A stretch of 64,000 nt of DNA. Source: Deroplatys truncata. Its lineage: Eukaryota > Arthropoda > Insecta > Mantodea > Mantidae. The position numbers and the translations under genes were made by a program. The notes beneath the pieces were generated by a model. That model searched no databases. It worked only from the letters and a program-made list of their open reading frames with translations, and was not told the origin of the DNA. Position 1 is the stretch's first letter, and every line of letters begins with the position of its first letter. Positions 16,148 to 63,951 of the stretch are shown here, in pieces. The stretch is taken from positions 664,156,618-664,220,617 of the forward strand of contig CM060990.1 of assembly GCA_030765065.1 (NCBI GenBank), written 5' to 3'.

Positions 16148-17040
16148 CGAGGGCTGATCAATAAAGACTGAGGCTGATTTTTTCCTGTAGCTTCCTTGAT
16201 AGTTTCCTGTCTCTACCACGAATATTTGAAAAGAGCAGGGTTTCATGTATAATGTCCATAGACAGCAGCACTCTTGTATCGGTAGGTTGGCAGTAATGCT
16301 GTATATTGTTGACCCTACTTGAATTTCGCATACCACTCGACACGAGAGGAGCAATAGAATTTTGTTTTCGTTTAAATCATACAGCCTCTGAAAATTTGGA
16401 AAAGCTGAAGCAAGCATACGGTGAAGATGCACTACCTCGTGCAACAGTGTTTAAGTGGTTCAAAGACTTCAAAGAAGGGCGAGTCCTCTGTGCTAAGCAA
16501 GGTGGGCCTGGTGCTTCGGCTTCTGCTATGACTGAAGTCAACATCAACACAGCTGCTGTGATTGTTGTTCTTCCTCACACTATTGCTACAGCAGCGTACT
16601 ACACGCCAGTATTGGCTACACTTAGGGAGCACATTGCAAGGAAACATCCAGAACTTCATCAGAACGGGTGACGACTTCATCACAACAACGCATGGCCTCA
16701 CGTCGCAAATCAAGTCTAGGAATTCAACATCACCTGCGTACTGCATCCGCCTTATAACCCCAATCTTGCCCCCTGTGATTTCTTTTTTATTCCCATCACT
16801 AAAGGCAAAGCTCCGGGGCATTCGATTTGAGAGCACTGAAGCGTGCTGAGGAAAAGTGAGGCGATTCTCAAAGACCTGACAAAGAATGGCCTGCACCATG
16901 TGCTTGAGGACTGGCAGAGACGCTATAAAAAGTGCATTCAAGTAGGAGGGGACTACTTTGAAAAAGATCATGTTAACATTGAAATGGAGTAATAAATACT
17001 GTGAAAAAAATCACTCACAGTCTTTATTGATCAGCCCTCC
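16148..17040 (+). mobile_element. Mariner element, internally deleted
   Basis: The ends 'gagggctgatcaataaagac' are inverted at left and right and flanked by TA (16146-16147, 17041-17042). The 893-bp length is short of the usual ~1.3 kb, consistent with loss of the middle of the transposase. Confidence 0.85.
16340..16992 (+). pseudogene. Mariner (DD34D-type) transposase remnant
   Basis: The N-terminal DNA-binding part is clear: 'ENLEKLKQAYGEDALPRATV' and 'FKWFKDFKEGR' match mariner helix-turn-helix sequences. After a gap the catalytic half reappears around 16680-16990, in more than one frame, with 'HNNAWPHVANQ', 'HPPYNPNLAPCDFFF' and a C-terminal 'GGDYFEKDHVNIEME'. The Asp expected in the HDNARPH motif is Asn, and stops and frameshifts separate the blocks. 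The middle of the protein, with the first catalytic Asp, is not visible. The copy is inactive. Confidence 0.8.
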
Positions 17041-23711: not shown

Positions 23712-25319
23712 TTAATTTTTTTCAAACTTTCTCTTCTTTGACTTCCTTTCAGATCCTTGAAGATGACTGTCCCTCCTCAACATCCAACAGTAGTCGGCCA
23801 TCATAGTTTCATTCCATCTTGGTACCTCCTCTCCATTTCCTTAATATCTGGGTGAAAACGTTCACCCTGCTCTTCACTATAATGTCCCAGATTTTCTGGA
23901 AAATAGTCGATATGTGAATGCAGAAAATGCACCTTTACACTCATGTTACAACCCATCTTCTTGAAATTTTCCAACATTGTTTCGACAATGGCCTTGTAGT
24001 TAGGATCTTTGTTATTGCCTAAGAAGTTTTCAGTAACTGATCGAAAGGCGGTCCATGTTTCTATTTCTCTCTCATTCATGGTCTTCTCAAAATCTTCATC
24101 CTTCATCAATTTCTTTATTTGAGGACCAACAAAAATTCCAGCCTTTAATTTGTCTTGTGTAATGAAGGGAAATTTCTTGGAAAGGTACTTGAAGCAGGGT
24201 CCATCCTGTGGTAGAGCCCTTACAAATTGCTTCATCAAGCCCAATTTTATGTGTAGTGGCGGAAGCAATATCTTGTCTGTCTACAAGCGGTTCGTGCAGG
24301 ATGTTTTTAGTTCCAGGCACCAAGTTTCTCCGCTGTGGCCATACTTTCACACTCCAATGTCTTTTTTTGCCCGACTGTCCCATTCGCAAAGAAAACAAGG
24401 CATTTTTGTGAACCCAGCTTGTTGTCCTAATAGTATTCCAATAACTTTGAAATCACCGCAGATACACCATTGGTGTTCCTCATATTGGATACTTGTTAAA
24501 AGTATCTTCATGTTTTCAACTGTCTCTTTCATTTGAACTGAATGTGCGACAGGAATGGACCCATACACATTCCCATTATGCAGTAACACACCTTTCAGGC
24601 TCCTCTTTGATGAATCTATAAAAAGGATCATGTTCAGTGTCATAAAAGTGCATTAACTCGTTTATGTTAGTGCAGTAAACCAAGGACTCGATCTGTGAGA
24701 AAAAAGGAACTAGCTCTTGTTCTCTGTGTCTGTACCACGAGTAAGGTGTTCCTGGTTCCAGAGGATTCTTATTTTTAAGACGGGAGCCTAGTAACTCTGC
24801 AGATTCCTTAGACAAATTCAAATCACGTACTAGATCATTTAGTTCACTCTGAGAGAACAGTTATGGAATCACGTCGTATTCAGGGTGGTAGACATCATCA
24901 GAATCGTCTTCGGTGATTGCATGAGGTTCACTTTCAACACCATCTTCTTCCAAGTTCTCTAAAAACAGCTGGAGAAAGAGGGGCAGGCAGATCTTCTCCG
25001 TGTGGAACTGGCCTGATGGCTGACGGAATACTTAGATACATAATGTTTTTCTTATTTTTCGAATTGCACCTCTGAACATTAACTAAACAGAAATAACAGA
25101 TTTTTTTTCTTTTATCCACAATCTTAACCTCTCAACACAATAGCGGCAAACTGTCTTTGGAGCCCAGGCCTTGCCTTGGTCACCAAGTTTCATTTTAAAA
25201 TAAGCATGGTACACTTTCTTCACAAAGTCTGTTATGTCAGTTCTCTGCTGAAGCACTGTACAATTTCCACAAATGTAGCATAAAACATTTGGATTGTTCA
25301 CACACTTGCGTGTAGACAT
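23712..25319 (-). pseudogene. Decayed copy of an uncharacterised multicopy arthropod gene family
   Basis: Successive minus-strand blocks keep one gene order. At 25319 it starts MSTRKCVNNPNVLCYICG, with Cys pairs C14/C17 and C58/C61 in a C4 zinc-binding pattern. Then come CYFC...IPSAIRPVPHG, an acidic linker, 'FSQSELNDLVRDLNLSKESA', 'LFIDSSKRSLKGVLLHNGN', 'KPCFLCEWDSRAK'-like cysteines, 'PPLHIKLGLMKQFVRALPQD' and 'GCNMSVKVHFLHSHIDYFPE'. It ends with MADYCWMLRRD and a basic tail at 23712. I recognise the arrangement as a recurrent predicted protein in arthropod genomes with no assigned function. Its copy number suggests mobility, but I cannot name a transposase class. The copy has several frameshifts, a stop before 'LFSQSELND' and a deletion near 25090. 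Part of it recurs at 50363-50467. Confidence 0.75.
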
Positions 25320-25679
25320 AATGTATTTATAACTTCAATCACGATATAGCACTGGTAATGCAAACCTCTGATATTAACAACAATGCCTAAATTACAAATA
25401 GCAACCAGCATCTATAGGTGTAACAACCTAAAGACTTACAAGTCTGTATTGAGAAATTTCCCTCCAAGAAGTGATATATTTTCCCTTCAGCAATACTCAT
25501 CATCTATTGGCTCAACTCTATATTTTTGAAGTAAAATTGTGAAAAAACTGTACGTGATAGAAAAAAAAACTAAAAGCAGTTCTGAAATCAGCTTAAAAGT
25601 GAGTCAGAATCACTTATTAGTTTTCAGTCATCCGATATCATGCAAACTAGTGTCATCAAGATAAACCTTTCCAGAAACA

Positions 25680-32144: not shown

Positions 32145-32712
32145 CCTGGTCACGATTCTTTTTGAACGACGATTCATGCACGATATAGTTTTTGAACGAA
32201 GATTCATGCGTGATTCTTTTTAAACGACGATTCATGCACGATATTCTTTTTGAACAACGATTCATCCGCGATTCTTGGGATTCTTTTTGAACGACGATTC
32301 ATACACGATTCTTGCGATTCTTTTTGAACAACGATTCATGCACGATTCTTGCGATTATTTTTGAACGACAATTCACGCATGATACTTGAGATTCTTTTTT
32401 AACAACGATTCATGCACGACTCTTGCGATTCTTTTTGAACCACGATTCATGCACGATATTCTTTTTGAACAACGATTCACGCACGATTCTTGCTATTCTT
32501 TTTGAACAACGATTCATGCACGATTCTTGCGATTCTTTTTGAACGACGATTTATACACGATTCTTGCGATTCTTTTTGAAGGACCATTTACGCACGACAT
32601 TCTTTTTGAACAACGATTCATGCACGATTCTTGCGATTATTTTTGAACGACGATCCATGCACGATATTCTTTTTGAACAGCGATTCTTTTTGAACGACGA
32701 TTCATGATAAGA
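32145..32712. repeat. 37-bp minisatellite with ~30-bp variants
   Basis: Repeating pattern 'gattctttttgaacaacgat' followed by 'tcatgcacgattcttgc'. Shorter units lack part of the second half. About 16-18 units, imperfect. The minus-strand frame at 31888-32265 runs into it and is not a gene. Confidence 0.85.
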
Positions 32713-35694: not shown

Positions 35695-36070
35695 CATATG
35701 TAGGAAGCATTTTTATATTGATTGAATAGTTGCTCTACCTTAATGTGGTGGCAGAAAAGGTACAAATACACCACCCACAGAGATTTAACATGGACTTCTA
35801 ACTTTCAAAAAGGGTCCAGCATCTATCAAGAATGCGACATAAAGATTTTCTCGAAATTCTCTCAAAGCAGGTGTGACGGTTTTGATTTGGTTTCTGCACA
35901 GGAGGAATTAAATATATATTTTTAATTTTCTGTGAATAACTTAAAAGATTCCTTCATTTTGTTTGAATTTTATATAACTATTGAAACTATATGAGACAGA
36001 CAAAAGCTCACTTTACACAAAAATGTAAAGCTCATTAGAATGTACAATACCAATTTTTGTAGCTATAGAC
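35695..36070. other. Unannotated stretch
   Basis: I recognise nothing here. It lies downstream (minus strand) of the promoter at 36380-36490 and contains no heat-shock protein coding sequence. Confidence 0.4.
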
Positions 36071-36075
36071 ATATA

Positions 36076-36383
36076 CCTGATATTTCCTTTTGCTGGTCGT
36101 AATTTCCTGCACATCAAGCTACATACTTTTGGAATGTTACGTCTGTTATTAAGTTTCTCATCAAGCCATGCAAAAAGTATTCACAGTATTGAAATACCAG
36201 TTACTGTGAAACACACTTAATTTATTACTTAGGCACTCAGCATAGCACAAAGTTACACTTGAGTCACATTGGCACACCCTCGGAACACAGCATAACTGAT
36301 CCGTCGAATCAAATCACAACTGAACTGTTGAACTTCACCGGTATTGTCTACTTTTCACTCGTCACTTCTTGACTAACAGAACT
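36076..36383 (-). other. Putative untranslated leader of a heat-inducible transcript
   Basis: From the initiator the minus strand begins 'agttctgttagtcaagaagt' and continues for about 300 bases, with only very short ATG frames. A splice-donor-like sequence (tcaggtatat) lies at about 36080-36071. The start resembles the A-rich leaders of insect heat-shock genes in style. I see no coding exon of HSP70, HSP90 or a small HSP downstream to position 1. It could be a first non-coding exon, a non-coding heat-shock RNA, or a captured promoter. Confidence 0.4.
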
Positions 36384-36415
36384 GAACTATCGGGGCAAGA
36401 GCAGCCCCTTATATA
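36380..36415 (-). promoter_or_regulatory. TATA box plus initiator, minus-strand core promoter
   Basis: On the minus strand TATATAAG spans 36415-36408 and an arthropod-type initiator TCAGTT spans 36385-36380. The distance from the first T of the TATA box to the initiator A (36383) is 32 bp, normal for RNA polymerase II. With the HSE array above, this is a complete heat-shock-type promoter. Confidence 0.75.
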
Positions 36416-36449
36416 GGCACCATATACAAAGCGAAACGTTCTAGATAAG

Positions 36450-36486
36450 GAACCGACTGGAACATGCGGAAGTGAATGTTCCGGAA
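36450..36486 (-). promoter_or_regulatory. Heat-shock element array
   Basis: Pentamer units in 5-bp steps: GAA at 36469, GAA at 36474, TTC at 36479 and GAA at 36484. The last three give a perfect nGAAnnTTCnnGAAn. Two further GAA units sit at 36450 and 36460, ten bases apart. This is the binding pattern of trimeric HSF. It lies 59-72 bp upstream of a minus-strand TATA box. Confidence 0.8.
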
Positions 36487-36715
36487 CTGGTAAGGGGCAC
36501 ATAAATGGGTTATTATGACACACTGGCTAATTGTTCCTCAAGCCCATTAGCCTAACCCGCGCCTGTAGATGAGCCGGGGGACGCTCGCACCGTCGTTCCA
36601 CAGGCAACCTAGCGCGCGCGGTCACAGTATCAAGACTAGCTCTTACATACAGTGAGCTAATTTTTAAACTTTGGACCGTATACTTCTATGTAACTAGAAC
36701 ATTGTGTGTATTAAA

Positions 36716-37160
36716 AGCGAGCGCAATGGCTCCGTGTGAGTCTCCCATTCTGGTTCATTTCCGTCGACCGCCCATTCTGATCTTGGGTTTTGTCATAGTT
36801 TTACCTGGTCTGTAGCGGAATGGTAGTTTCTCATTTACCACGTTTTTCTTTCCCTCATTTCCCTTTCAAACCGTCTCCTCATCTTTCAGATATGATTCTA
36901 GGTTTCGTGGTGTATGGCGGTGCCGGACATGTGGCGCGGATGCTTGTGCAAGGGAAAGGGTATTCCTCGTGGACACTGGGGGAGCTAGGAATGTTAGGAA
37001 CTTACGCGCTTTTCTGCGGCCTCTCTGCTTGCTGCTTGTAGCCTACTGTGGTTCCTTCACTTCATCCTCCTGCGGGATGGTAGCTAGTGTGTAGATCTTC
37101 CGTAGGTCGCAGTATGCGAAGTGTTCCCTGCGCTGTATACCCTATACTCTACGTGTATAG
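36716..37160 (+). repeat. SINE-2 copy
   Basis: The decayed head ('gcgagcgcaatggctccgtg', 'gaccgcccattctgatcttg') is followed by 'ctttccctcatttccctttc', 'tgtggttccttcacttcatc' and the closing 'gctgtataccctatac' block shared with 44085-44570. Confidence 0.65.
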
Positions 37161-37842: not shown

Positions 37843-37866
37843 CAGTCCCTCGAAGTTGACTGAGAG

Positions 37867-39132
37867 ATGGCGAAGAGGAAGCATCGCAGACACGCCGAGC
37901 CTCCTAAGGCAGGAATCTCCTCTTCTGCCCAGGCATCTGCCGAGGGAATTTCGCCGCAACCGCCACAGCCTGAGCCAACCTACGCCTTGGCCGCAGCTTC
38001 GCCGCCCGCCAGCGCATCTTCGCCGCTACCGCACCAGCAGTCGCTGTCACACTCACTGGCATCCACGCTGCCGATTCTGGGAACTTCCCAGCCACCTCAG
38101 AGCCAGCCTGTGCTTCAAGGGAGGAATAGTGGTGTTATCAGAGGGGTCCCGAAGGACCTGCCAGCCAGGTTCCTCACCACCGCAGATCACCAGCAGTGGC
38201 CTTCAGCCTTGAAGGCCACCAGGATCATCAGAGCACAGGGACCCACGTCGTTCCTCAGGATGCAGTTTGCAGACCCTAGCGACTACGAAGCGGCCTTGAA
38301 GGCGGGCCTGCCCTTGTTAGGGCGGTGCTTACGCATCGAGGCCAGCCGAGTGGAACGCCAGGCTCCCTGCCGACGCTGCTGTGCCTACGGGCACAGTGAG
38401 ACGTCCTGCACAGCACAACCGAGGTGCCACTACTGTGGCGCCTGCAGCACCACTGCTGCGTGCAAGCAGCACGATCTGCGCCGTCGCCGCCGTTATTGTG
38501 CAACTTGTGGAGGTACGACTCTCTTCACCGGCCAAGCACTCTGCCTCCTGCATCCTCGCAGGAAGGCATCGCCGAAATCGCCTGCTCTTTCCACGCCACC
38601 GCAGCTGACACCATCACCACCACTACAGCCTACAACAGTCACCTTGGAATCATCACCAGCACACTCGACCGGAGCCATTCAGGATCTTCATGCCGAGTTC
38701 CTGAACTTCAGTGCCCGTATAGCCGCTCTGGAAGCGTCCATAGCGGACATCACACAAAAACTTCAAATTCTAAAAACATTTGTGGATATTAACCATCAGG
38801 CCATCGCCACCGAAGTTCCAGCCCGGCTAGAGAAGGTCTACGACCGCCTCTACGCCGTGGAGAGCTTGGTAGCGAACTTCAACACGCCGCCGAACAGAAG
38901 GCATCACCGTCACCAACCTTTACCACTACCACCAGGAAGCCTTTCTTATCCTCACTTTAACTTCGCTGAAGAGGCAGGCTGGGCCTTGGTCAAGCCTGTC
39001 TCCCAGCACACAATCCTTACTCCTCTGGCGACCGCACTGCGGCCAGTTTCAACCATCACCTTGGAATACGCGGGTGCTTTAGGCAGTACCGCAGCAAACC
39101 TTCTCCTTTCAATCTGGTGGAGGAGCTTTTAG
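37867..39132 (+). CDS. Non-LTR retrotransposon (LINE) ORF1, Gag-like
   Basis: An open 421-codon frame starts at the first ATG after the SINE (context gagagATGGCG). Residues 1-85 are Pro/Ser/Ala/Gln-rich. Residues about 88-160 (VIRGVPKDLPARFL ... LGRCLRIEAS) have the RRM-like layout that precedes zinc knuckles in Jockey/I-type ORF1 proteins. C168, C171, H176 and C181 form a perfect CX2CX4HX4C knuckle, and two looser Cys-rich motifs follow (from C187 and C211). Residues about 285-345 look coiled-coil (LNFSARIAALEASIADITQK). Such proteins bind the element RNA and form the RNP. No endonuclease or reverse transcriptase frame follows: after the stop there are about 110 bases and an A/G-rich tail. 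It may be 3' truncated or an ORF1-only element. Codon usage is GC-rich, unlike its surroundings. Confidence 0.8.
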   Translation: MAKRKHRRHAEPPKAGISSSAQASAEGISPQPPQPEPTYALAAASPPASASSPLPHQQSLSHSLASTLPILGTSQPPQSQPVLQGRNSGVIRGVPKDLPARFLTTADHQQWPSALKATRIIRAQGPTSFLRMQFADPSDYEAALKAGLPLLGRCLRIEASRVERQAPCRRCCAYGHSETSCTAQPRCHYCGACSTTAACKQHDLRRRRRYCATCGGTTLFTGQALCLLHPRRKASPKSPALSTPPQLTPSPPLQPTTVTLESSPAHSTGAIQDLHAEFLNFSARIAALEASIADITQKLQILKTFVDINHQAIATEVPARLEKVYDRLYAVESLVANFNTPPNRRHHRHQPLPLPPGSLSYPHFNFAEEAGWALVKPVSQHTILTPLATALRPVSTITLEYAGALGSTAANLLLSIWWRSF

Positions 39133-50362: not shown

Positions 50363-50467
50363 ATGTTGGAAAATTTCAAGAAGATGGGTTGTAACATGAG
50401 TGTAAAGGTGCATTTTCTGCATTCACATATCGACTACTTTCCAGAAAATCTGGGACATTATAGTGAA
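50363..50467 (+). pseudogene. Captured 105-bp fragment of the gene at 23712-25319
   Basis: The block is 104/105 identical by eye to the reverse complement of 23873-23977. It encodes 'MLENFKKMGCNMSVKVHFLH' and 'SHIDYFPENLGHYSE'. The one difference is synonymous (TAC/TAT, Tyr). It sits at a point where copy 1 of the same TIR element has about ten unrelated bases. Immediately after it, 'tttcactataatg' (50468-50480) is the inverted repeat of its last 12 bases. Confidence 0.85.
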
Positions 50468-52710: not shown

Positions 52711-54417
52711 TAGAGGTCTGCACGGGCCGAAATTCTGTGTCCCGGCCCGATTCGGCCCTGTTAGAACCGAGCCCGAGATTAGTTTATATTGTATCAACTG
52801 GTCCGGCCCGGTCAGAACCGAGCCAGAGATTAGGTTATACTGTACCAGCCGGTCCGGCCCGGACAAAACCAAGTCCGAGCCCGAGATTAGTTTATACTGT
52901 ACCAGCCGGTCCGGCCCGGACAAAACCGAGTCCGAGCCCGAGATTAGGTTATACTGTACCAGCCGGTCCGGCCCGGACAAAACCGAGTCCAAGCCCGAGA
53001 TTAGTTTATACTGTACTAGCCGGTCCGGCCCGGACAAAACCAAGTCCGAGCCCGAGATTAGTTTATACTGTACCAGCCGGTCCGGCCCGGACAAAACCAA
53101 GTCCGAGCCCGAGATTAGGTTATACTGTACCAGCCGGTCCGGCCCGGACAAAACCAAGTCCGAGCCCGAGATTAGTTTATACTGTACCAGCCGGTCCGGC
53201 CCGGACTCAAAACAAGTCCGAGCCCGAGATTAGGTTATACTGTACCAGCCGGTCCGGCCCGGACAAAACCGAGTCCGAGCCCGAGATTAGGTTATACTGT
53301 ACCAGCCGGTCCGGCCCGGACAAAACCAAGTCCGAGCCCGAGATTAGTTTATACTGTACCACCTGTTCCGGTCCGGACAGAACCGAGTCCGAGATTAGCT
53401 TATATTGTACGAACCGGTCCGGCCCGGTCAGAACCGAGCCCAAGATTAGGTTATACTGTACCACCCGGTCCGGCCCGGTCAGAACCGAGTCCGAGATTAG
53501 GTTATACTGTACCACCCCGTCTGGCCCGGACAGAACCGAGCCCGAGCCCAGGTTATACTCTTCCAGCCGGTCCGGCCCGGACAGAACAAAGCCCGAGATT
53601 AGTTTATACTGTACCAGCCGGTCCGGCCCGATCAAAACCGAGCCCCTGCCTGAAATTAGGTTATACTGTACAAACCCGGACTGGCCTGGACAGAATTGAG
53701 TCCGAGATTAGTTTATACTGTACAGCCCGTTCCGGCTCGGTCAGAACCGAGCCCGAGATTGGGTTATGCTGTACCACCCGGTCCGGTCCTGTCTAATTTG
53801 GATTTAAACAAAATTATTTTGCAGTTATTTATTATTACTTTGATTATTATCGTCACCATCAGTCCACAAAGCGCTACGCCTTAGGTGCGACGGTAATCGG
53901 GTTCGAATTCAGGACCAATTGGAGAAACACTTCACAGAAATAGTGGCGCTGAGGTGCTGGAATCCGCAAGTAAAGAGACATGTTGACGATATACTGCCTT
54001 ATTGATCACATACCGCTCCTATTACTACATTCTGCCCAGGATGTCCTGGATATGGGTGGACGGAGGGAGGCGGAGTTTGCAGCTGCCGTGCTGTGGTAAC
54101 ATTATACGCAATTGGCCAAAGCGAGCATTTGTTATTACTGCGTAGTATTACTACTGCATTGGATGTGTGCAAGCTGCGATAATTGGGCCATTCAGGGAAC
54201 TTAAAAAAAAGTGATAAATTAATTGTTTTTCTTTATTTTCCCTTTACATTGAAACGTTTTCGTTATTTTCTTTCTCAAAGGCGAAAATAATATGTTTTAT
54301 TAAAATACCATAACTTTAAAGATATTTAAATCACAAAATGCATATATTAAATGTGATAAATTAATAGTTTCTTCCTTATTTTCAAGTCCGAGCCCAGCCC
54401 GCCCGTGCAGATCTCTG
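52711..54417. mobile_element. hAT-like non-autonomous element with internal minisatellite
   Basis: Ends 'tagaggtctgcacgggcc' and, inverted, 'cagagatctgcacgggcg' match over the inner 16 bases with one difference. The CAG start and short ends suit hAT. I could not find an 8-bp target duplication, so the class is tentative. The interior is a GC-rich minisatellite plus about 600 bp of AT-rich sequence. Confidence 0.6.
52757..53790. repeat. 57-bp GC-rich minisatellite, about 18 units
   Basis: The unit 'ccggtccggcccggacaaaa' + 'ccgagtccgagcccgagatt' + 'aggttatactgtaccag' is 57 bp. Variants lack 6 bp (51 bp). Since both lengths are multiples of three, several frames stay open: plus 52641-53699 (352 codons, 19-residue repeat YTVPAGPARTKPSPSPRLV), plus 52694-53233, and minus 52666-53157 and 53207-53635. 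A protein role is unlikely. A solitary related unit at 54384-54408 marks the far end of the host element. Confidence 0.9.
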
Positions 54418-59619: not shown

Positions 59620-60545
59620 TTACTTTCTCTACTACGTATAGTAGGTAGGGGAAGTATTCTATTCCACCCTAAAATTCGATACCGAGATTTCACCGGAAAT
59701 ACATGTTTTGAGACCCCCTGAATCCAAAAAAAGCATTTTTGGAAACATGTCCGTGTGTGTCTGTGTGTCTGTGTGTCTGTGTGTGTCTGTGTGTGTGTCT
59801 GTCTGTGAACAGCATAACTCAGAAACGAACAGTCGGATAAACACCAAACTTGGTATTTAGGTTCAGTATCTTCCAAGGATGCGACACGAAGGTTTTCAAG
59901 AAAATCCCCCCACCCCAGATTACGCTTTACATGGAAGATTTTTCGAAAATTTTAATTTTTTCAAAAATGGATCTAACGATTTTGATTAAAATATCATATG
60001 TTTAAGATATTTTTATGACAAATAAAATGCATATCTTGAACTTCCTGGGAATGTCTCCAAAAGTATTCTTCAATGTGAACGACTTTTGCATAACTGGTAA
60101 ACCATAAGAGATAGACAAAATTTTACTACACAAAAAATGTAGATCGCGTTAAAATACACAATTTATGTCATATACATTTTTTTTGTTGAGTGAAGCATTT
60201 TCGAGATATTACTTGTTATTCCCTTAAATTTTTCAATAGTTATTTTCTCAAATGGGAATTCGTTATTAATTTTTTTTGTCTTGGATATGCAAAGAGTATT
60301 AATCTGTGGGAAAGGGAATGGTGCTGCACCTAGCAACCAGCTATTAAAGAGATATGTATGTGCTTAAAGGCTACTGTATTTCCAAATTGCCCTTGTAAAT
60401 ATATATTCCCCTTGCATCTACAAGAAAATTAGCAATAAGATAGAGTCTGCAAATGTTTATCTCGATTAACATGAAGTAGATGGAGAATAAGCGTTTGTAA
60501 AAATGGTTTGTACAAGAGTAGGGAAAGTCATGTGAGTGTAACACA
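59620..60545 (+). repeat. Family A repeat, reference full-length copy
   Basis: From 'actttctctactacgtatag' to 'gtagggaaagtcatgtgagt' this 0.93-kb unit includes the 'accgagatttcaccggaaat' block, a (TG)n/(TGTC)n tract (about 59753-59810), 'aacaccaaacttggtattta', 'atctaacgattttgattaaa' and 'aaatgtttatctcgattaac'. At least a dozen other copies or fragments lie in the window on both strands. It has short inverted ends and no coding frame. The (TG)n tract varies in length among copies. Confidence 0.75.
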
Positions 60546-62758: not shown

Positions 62759-63951
62759 CATTATGTGATCAAAAGTATCCGGACACCCCACAAACATACG
62801 TTTTTCATCTTAGGTATATTGTGCTGCCACCTACTGCCTGGTACTCATTATCCATGACTTCGAACGTGGTCAGGTGATTGGGTGTCACTTGTGTCAGAAG
62901 TCTGTACGCGAGATTTCCACACTCCTAAACATCCCTAGGTCCACTGTTTCTGATGTATTAGTGAAGTGTAAACATGAAGGGACATGTACAGCACAAAAGA
63001 GTACAGGCCGACCTTGTCTGTTGACTAACAGAGACCGCCGACATTTGAAGAGGGTCGTAAAGGGTAATAGGTAGACATCTATCCAGAACATCACACAGGA
63101 ATTCCAAACTGCATCAGGATCCACTCCAAATACTATGACAGTTAGGCGTGAGGTGAGAAACCTTGGATTCCATGGTCAAGCGGCTTCTCATAAGCCACAC
63201 ATCACGCAGGAAAATGCCAAACGACGCCTCGCTTGGTGTAAGGAGCGTCAACATTACACGATTGAACAGTGGCAAAACGTTGTGTGGAGTGACGAATCAC
63301 GGTACACAATGTGGCGATCCGATGGCAGGGTGTGGGTATGACGAATGTCCGGTGAACGTCATCTGCCAGCGTGTGTAGTGCCAACAGTGAAATTCGGAGG
63401 TGGTGCTGTTATGGTGTGGTCGTGTTTTTCCTGCGGGGGGGGGGGGGCTTGCACCCCTTGTTGTTTTGCGTGGCACGATCACAGGGTAGACCTAAATTGA
63501 TATTTTAAGCACCTTCTTGCTTCCCACTGTTGAAGAGCAATTCAGGGATGGCGATTGCATCTTTCAACACGATCGAGCACCTGTTCATACTGCACGGGCT
63601 GTGGCGGAGTGGTTACACGACAATAACATCCCTGTAATAGACTGGCCTGCACAGAGTCCTGACTTGAATCCTATAGAACACCTTTGGGATGTTTTGGAAT
63701 GCCGACTTCGTGCCAGGCCTCACCGACCTACATCGATACCTCTCCTCAGTTCCGCACTCCGTGAAGAATGGGCTGCCATTCCCCAAGAAACCTTCCAGCA
63801 CTGATTGAAAGTATGCCTGCGAGAGTGAACGCTGTCATCAAGGCTAAGGGTGGGCCAACAGCATATTGACCTCCAGCATTACCGATGGGGGTCGTCACGA
63901 ACTTGTACGTCATTTTCAGCCAGGTGCACGGATACTTTTGATCACGTAGTG
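62759..63951 (+). mobile_element. Tc1-like DNA transposon, both ends present
   Basis: Inverted ends 'cattatgtgatcaaaagtat' and 'cactacgtgatcaaaagtat' are bordered by TA (62757-62758, 63952-63953). The 1193-bp element has a single transposase gene on the plus strand. Confidence 0.9.
62856..63804 (+). pseudogene. Tc1-like (DD34E) transposase, lightly broken
   Basis: The N-terminal helix-turn-helix reads 'DFERGQVIGCHLCQKSVREI' and 'STLLNIPRSTVSDVLVKC'. After a stop at 63072 the same frame continues through the second DNA-binding domain and the first catalytic Asp ('NVVWSDESRYTMWRSDGRVW'). A stop and frame change follow at about 63341, a pure G run lies at 63437-63449, and the last 95 codons hold 'FQHDRAPVHTARAVAEWLHD' and 'WPAQSPDLNPIEHLWDVLEC', with 34 residues between the Asp and Glu. 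All catalytic residues are present but the frame is interrupted at least three times, so it is inactive. It is the best preserved transposase in the window. Confidence 0.85.

Follow-up and report, generated by a model that had tools for sequence, protein, structure and literature searches.

A heat shock element (HSE), a TATA box and an initiator were identified in promoter-like order on the minus strand of a 64,000-nucleotide stretch of the Deroplatys truncata genome (hereafter, the window), while no recognisable chaperone coding sequence was present in the scanned DNA. The element belongs to a known kind. It is best explained, tentatively and with somewhat less than even probability, as an RNA polymerase II promoter of heat-shock type that, together with its leader, became separated from a chaperone gene and would yield no more than a short non-coding RNA. 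Four alternatives were ranked below this explanation, in descending order of probability: chance coincidence of motifs, the first exon of a distant gene, carriage by a mobile element, and a non-coding RNA gene resembling hsr-omega. If the promoter fires, it would offer an HSF-type promoter without a chaperone, useful for asking by what route non-coding DNA comes under heat-responsive transcription; a silent promoter provides a measured example of the chance rate for such motif sets in a large genome. The features concerned are as follows.

36474–36486, minus strand: core heat shock element of three perfect units, TTCCGGAACATTC (sequence read and motif scan)
36433–36471, minus strand: five additional GAA/TTC units, starting on the plus strand at 36433, 36439, 36450, 36460 and 36469
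36408–36415, minus strand: TATA box, TATATAAG (sequence read)
36380–36385, minus strand: initiator TCAGTT, predicted +1 being the A at 36383
36227–36383, minus strand: predicted leader, in which the first ATG (+91) opens just nine codons
36209–36226, minus strand: AATAAA at +158 followed by GTGTGTTT, a putative polyadenylation site
36049–36732, no strand assigned: stretch between repeat matches, for which the window contains no significant second copy
32151–32703, no strand assigned: tandem array of 553 bp in units of about 30–37 bp, 3.7–4.2 kb downstream; any link to the promoter is speculative

Promoter motifs and their counterparts in other insects

An HSF-responsive insect promoter should contain at least one HSE with three alternating nGAAn units, followed downstream at canonical distance by a TATA box and an initiator; both features were observed. 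The alternating units occupied 36474–36486 and read, on the plus strand, GAA (36474–36476), TTC (36479–36481) and GAA (36484–36486), exactly as the first-pass annotation had described them. Its distances were also accurate: the core HSE started 59 bp upstream of the first T of TATATAAG, and the initiator A (36383) lay 32 bp past the same T. Eight GAA/TTC units in total were contained in 54 bp (36433–36486), since TTC 36439 and GAA 36433 can be added to the GAA units previously noted at 36469, 36460 and 36450. The spaced units at 36460 and 36450 were both present. However, GAA 36469, which had been taken to extend the HSE, lies 5 bp from GAA 36474 in the same orientation, so alternation is broken and the alternating HSE is limited to three units. 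The five further units were spaced at 6, 11, 10 and 9 bp, out of the alternating 5-bp register of the core, and the site did not appear among the best four-unit HSE matches listed from a scan of the window. The presence of a single true three-unit HSE, all remaining units being half-sites of mixed spacing, argues against a detached heat-shock promoter.

The layout appears to be that of an insect hsp70 promoter, and would be driven by HSF. On heating, HSF trimers would be expected on the core HSE and, with weaker binding, on the spaced half-units; TBP would occupy TATATAAG, and a leftward transcript would begin at 36383. The likeliest origin of such an element would be the 5' end of a heat-shock gene that was duplicated or rearranged, its coding part having been lost or moved among transposons.

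The hsp70 promoters of Drosophila, Stratiomys and Oxycera, as far as published excerpts describe them, resemble the site in having HSEs within about 100 bp of the TATA box; they differ in having three or four candidate HSEs, as opposed to one perfect three-unit HSE here. For Stratiomys singularior hsp70, passages of PMC3071340 report TATA boxes (TATATATA), a start at AGT, a variable number of HSEs, and a start codon 230 bp downstream of the transcription start. The TATATA form and the AGT start are shared with the present site, and no canonical GAGA site is needed; canonical GAGA sites are missing from stratiomyid hsp70 promoters in the sections of PMC4336284 that deal with them, and an altered TATATA form was without effect in the reporter used there. 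Together, these parts of PMC4336284 and PMC3071340 indicate that working hsp70 promoters of stratiomyid flies can have TATATA boxes, lack canonical GAGA sites and vary in HSE spacing, which speaks for a detached promoter here. Unlike the insect hsp70 promoters, the window site had no hsp70 coding sequence about 230 bp downstream. The Oxycera hsp70 pseudogenes are comparable as debris of heat-shock genes, but the relevant passages of PMC3071340 describe the reverse case, in which coding sequence is kept and HSE and TATA are lacking, and this weighs against a stranded promoter. No closer published case than those cited here was found among the matches listed, and the literature search returned no match for a heat shock element in a cockroach hsp70 promoter.

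Expected frequency of comparable motif sets

There were 108 TATA-like sites on the two strands of the window. Four of these had an initiator at fitting distance, and one had a perfect HSE no more than 150 bp upstream; the latter also had the initiator, making it the only HSE-TATA-initiator combination in the window. That the set was complete, at canonical spacing and without a second case, favours a detached promoter. Perfect three-unit HSEs occurred twice (36474 and 56672), against 1.1 expected from simulation, and near matches with up to one mismatch occurred 36 times, against 24.5 expected. None of 100 windows simulated with an order-3 model contained all three elements. With an order-4 model, a TATA box, an initiator and a perfect HSE 15–110 bp upstream of the TATA box were found together in 45 of 24,000 simulated windows; when at least eight units were also required this fell to 13 of 24,000 (about 5e-4 per window), using match criteria that were fixed after the site had been seen. 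For a genome of 2–3 Gb, which is an assumed size, this corresponds to about 17–25 such sites by chance, and the figure counts against a stranded promoter. In a single window such a site is uncommon, which favours a detached promoter, yet chance at genome scale is not negligible.

A coincidence of HSE, TATA and initiator-like words in non-functional intergenic DNA is therefore the foremost rival, being unlikely by our estimate, if appreciably less so than the others. Besides the genome-wide expectation, the retrospective choice of criteria speaks for it, as does the failure of ORF family scans and tblastn to find a gene attached to the promoter. Conversely, the combination is improbable in one given window, the spacing is canonical and the initiator match is exact. 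We guess that the chance sites are roughly matched in number by real promoters of the same type that have no chaperone gene close by, and chance thus retains a sizeable share. The first-pass annotation had left genome-scale chance out of its weighing. Its reading of a promoter-like order without a recognisable chaperone gene was upheld, but none of the three options it derived from this (a distant exon, a heat-induced non-coding RNA or a promoter copied by a mobile element) was established.

Downstream sequence and the search for coding exons

No chaperone domain was found in any of the 146 minus-strand ORFs (at least 49 aa) below 36400, as judged by the best 25 of 33 families, those beyond being weak by the ordering used. 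The same was true of 146 of the 159 other ORFs listed, as judged by the best 25 of 39 families. The strongest family matches among the ORFs were to transposase parts and one RNase H, and weak matches concerned zf-AD, PET122 and metallo-beta-lactamase. When five human chaperones were compared with both strands by tblastn, 36 rows were returned with E values from 0.26 to 9.4 and nothing below. One HSP60 row, located in the leader on the plus strand (36283–36369, E = 4.8), was attributed to chance. ORF scans and tblastn thus placed no coding sequence for hsp70, hsp90, hsp60, hsp40 or a small HSP downstream of the promoter within the window; the earlier statement that no HSP exon follows is sound within the limits of these scans, which could miss small or diverged exons. 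Nor did tblastn find a chaperone gene relic, and this counts against a stranded promoter, given that a lost gene might leave one.

The predicted leader was not A-rich (28% A across the first 188 nt), which is a further point against a heat-shock leader. The stretch after the AATAAA at +158 was GT-rich. Splice donors were scored by donor frequencies; the best in the first 1.8 kb were at +373 (score 3.1) and at +107 and +1551 (2.4), where the 99th percentile of GT-site scores was 3.7, and the first donor to exceed this value was at +1867. Early AATAAA followed by GT-rich sequence, in combination with weak donors only, supports a detached promoter, whose RNA would have no coding content here and might terminate shortly past the AATAAA. 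HSF1 drives non-coding RNAs in other animals too, according to passages of PMC9032817. The ratio of observed to expected CpG was about 1 over the promoter, but was dropped as promoter evidence because this was merely the 71st–78th percentile of the window. No tRNA was detected by a tRNA scan of the window.

Alternatively, the leader could be a first non-coding exon, with coding exons that lie to the left of the window or are too small or diverged to recognise, such that heat would induce a spliced mRNA. Some heat-shock genes start with a non-coding exon, Drosophila hsp83 among them, and the donor at +1867 had a good score, with that at +373 being weaker. Against this, the first 1.8 kb contained no donor above the 99th percentile, and this had the effect of weakening the distant-exon option as originally proposed; moreover, over 36 kb passed without a recognised host exon (146 ORFs), the zf-AD/PET122 match at 25086–25334 being weak and below its cut-offs. 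We regard a distant gene as distinctly unlikely.

Flanking repeats, mobile elements and tandem arrays

The stretch containing the promoter was bordered on its left by a fragment 71% identical to 60021–60162, and on its right by repeats that began at 36733–36757 and were 70–74% identical to other copies. Repeats on both sides are consistent with a promoter carried by a mobile element, which could bring HSF control to adjacent DNA; TATA box, start and AATAAA within 200 bp resemble an LTR, and passages of PMC6927752 describe how Helitrons have dispersed HSEs in Caenorhabditis. As in Caenorhabditis, HSEs are found here apart from chaperone genes and in repeat-rich DNA, but the window site has a complete core promoter, and neither a Helitron-like end nor a significant copy was found in the window. 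LTR-like borders were no more frequent than at 300 random positions (1 versus a control mean of 1.07 with a 6-bp target site duplication, TSD; 0 versus 1.08 for TSD plus terminal inverted repeat, TIR). A long TIR was not found near the site, where inverted repeats were imperfect and 11–21 nt long, and were taken as chance; nor was a Helitron-like hairpin end found in 35701–36900. Old, degraded ends could escape this search for terminal repeats, target duplication and hairpin. The earlier suggestion of a copied promoter consequently gained no support inside the window, the second copy being missing and the element ends not being beyond chance, and it is considered less probable than a distant gene. 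Exact words of 23, 25 and 22 bases from the promoter, leader and neighbouring repeat had no matches in viral contigs, where insect DNA is hardly expected. Phage records gave one 36-base match (E = 0.7), shared by two entries for a single phage.

Least probable of all, and very doubtful, is the view that the site drives a long non-coding RNA gene which is induced by heat and serves much as hsr-omega (93D) does in Drosophila, with the array at 32151–32703 in its tail; such an independent analogue outside Drosophila, a heat-inducible non-coding RNA gene with a tandem-repeat tail, is equally doubtful. The word ATAGGTAGG, presumed to be an hsr-omega repeat word, had 0 matches where 0.29 were expected, and Rfam yielded no match at gathering thresholds. 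The two do have in common a heat-type promoter without a protein-coding gene and tandem repeats some kb downstream, but passages of PMC9865238 describe the heat-induced hsr-omega RNA as having a 23–27-codon ORF in exon 1, an intron of ~700 bp and 5–15 kb of 280-bp repeats, whereas here the first ATG opens 9 codons, an early intron would have to rely on weak donors (best, +373), AATAAA comes early, and the unrelated array is much shorter in both unit and length. The array was rich in GAA and TTC, which were not in the 5-bp alternating register of an HSE.

Several other elements were observed in the window. Mariner/Tc1-type transposase pieces were present on the plus strand at 16297–16668 and 62814–63801, with matches to HTH_48 (E = 1.9e-11), HTH_SB-like (6.6e-8) and DDE_3 (6.8e-12) domains. 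Transposase pieces of this type and the style of the core promoter point to an insect source. A 422-aa open frame at 37864–39129 (plus strand) contained cysteine/histidine clusters that, by eye, were like a retrotransposon gag zinc knuckle; it had no Pfam match at 0.01. On the minus strand, ORFs between 25334 and 23804 looked like fragments, either of a coding gene or of an old gene derived from a transposon; the one at 25086–25334 produced the zf-AD and PET122 matches, both under cut-offs, and the ORF at 23804–24280 produced none. Two inverted copies of a 105-bp sequence (23873–23977 and 50363–50467) were 99% identical despite being 26 kb apart in otherwise unrelated DNA. Both encode an identical peptide stretch, and the pair appears to have arisen through recent copying of a portion of some coding-like segment. 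Lastly, a 57-bp tandem array of 18.7 copies at 52767–53786 had several frames open on both strands, of up to 364 aa.
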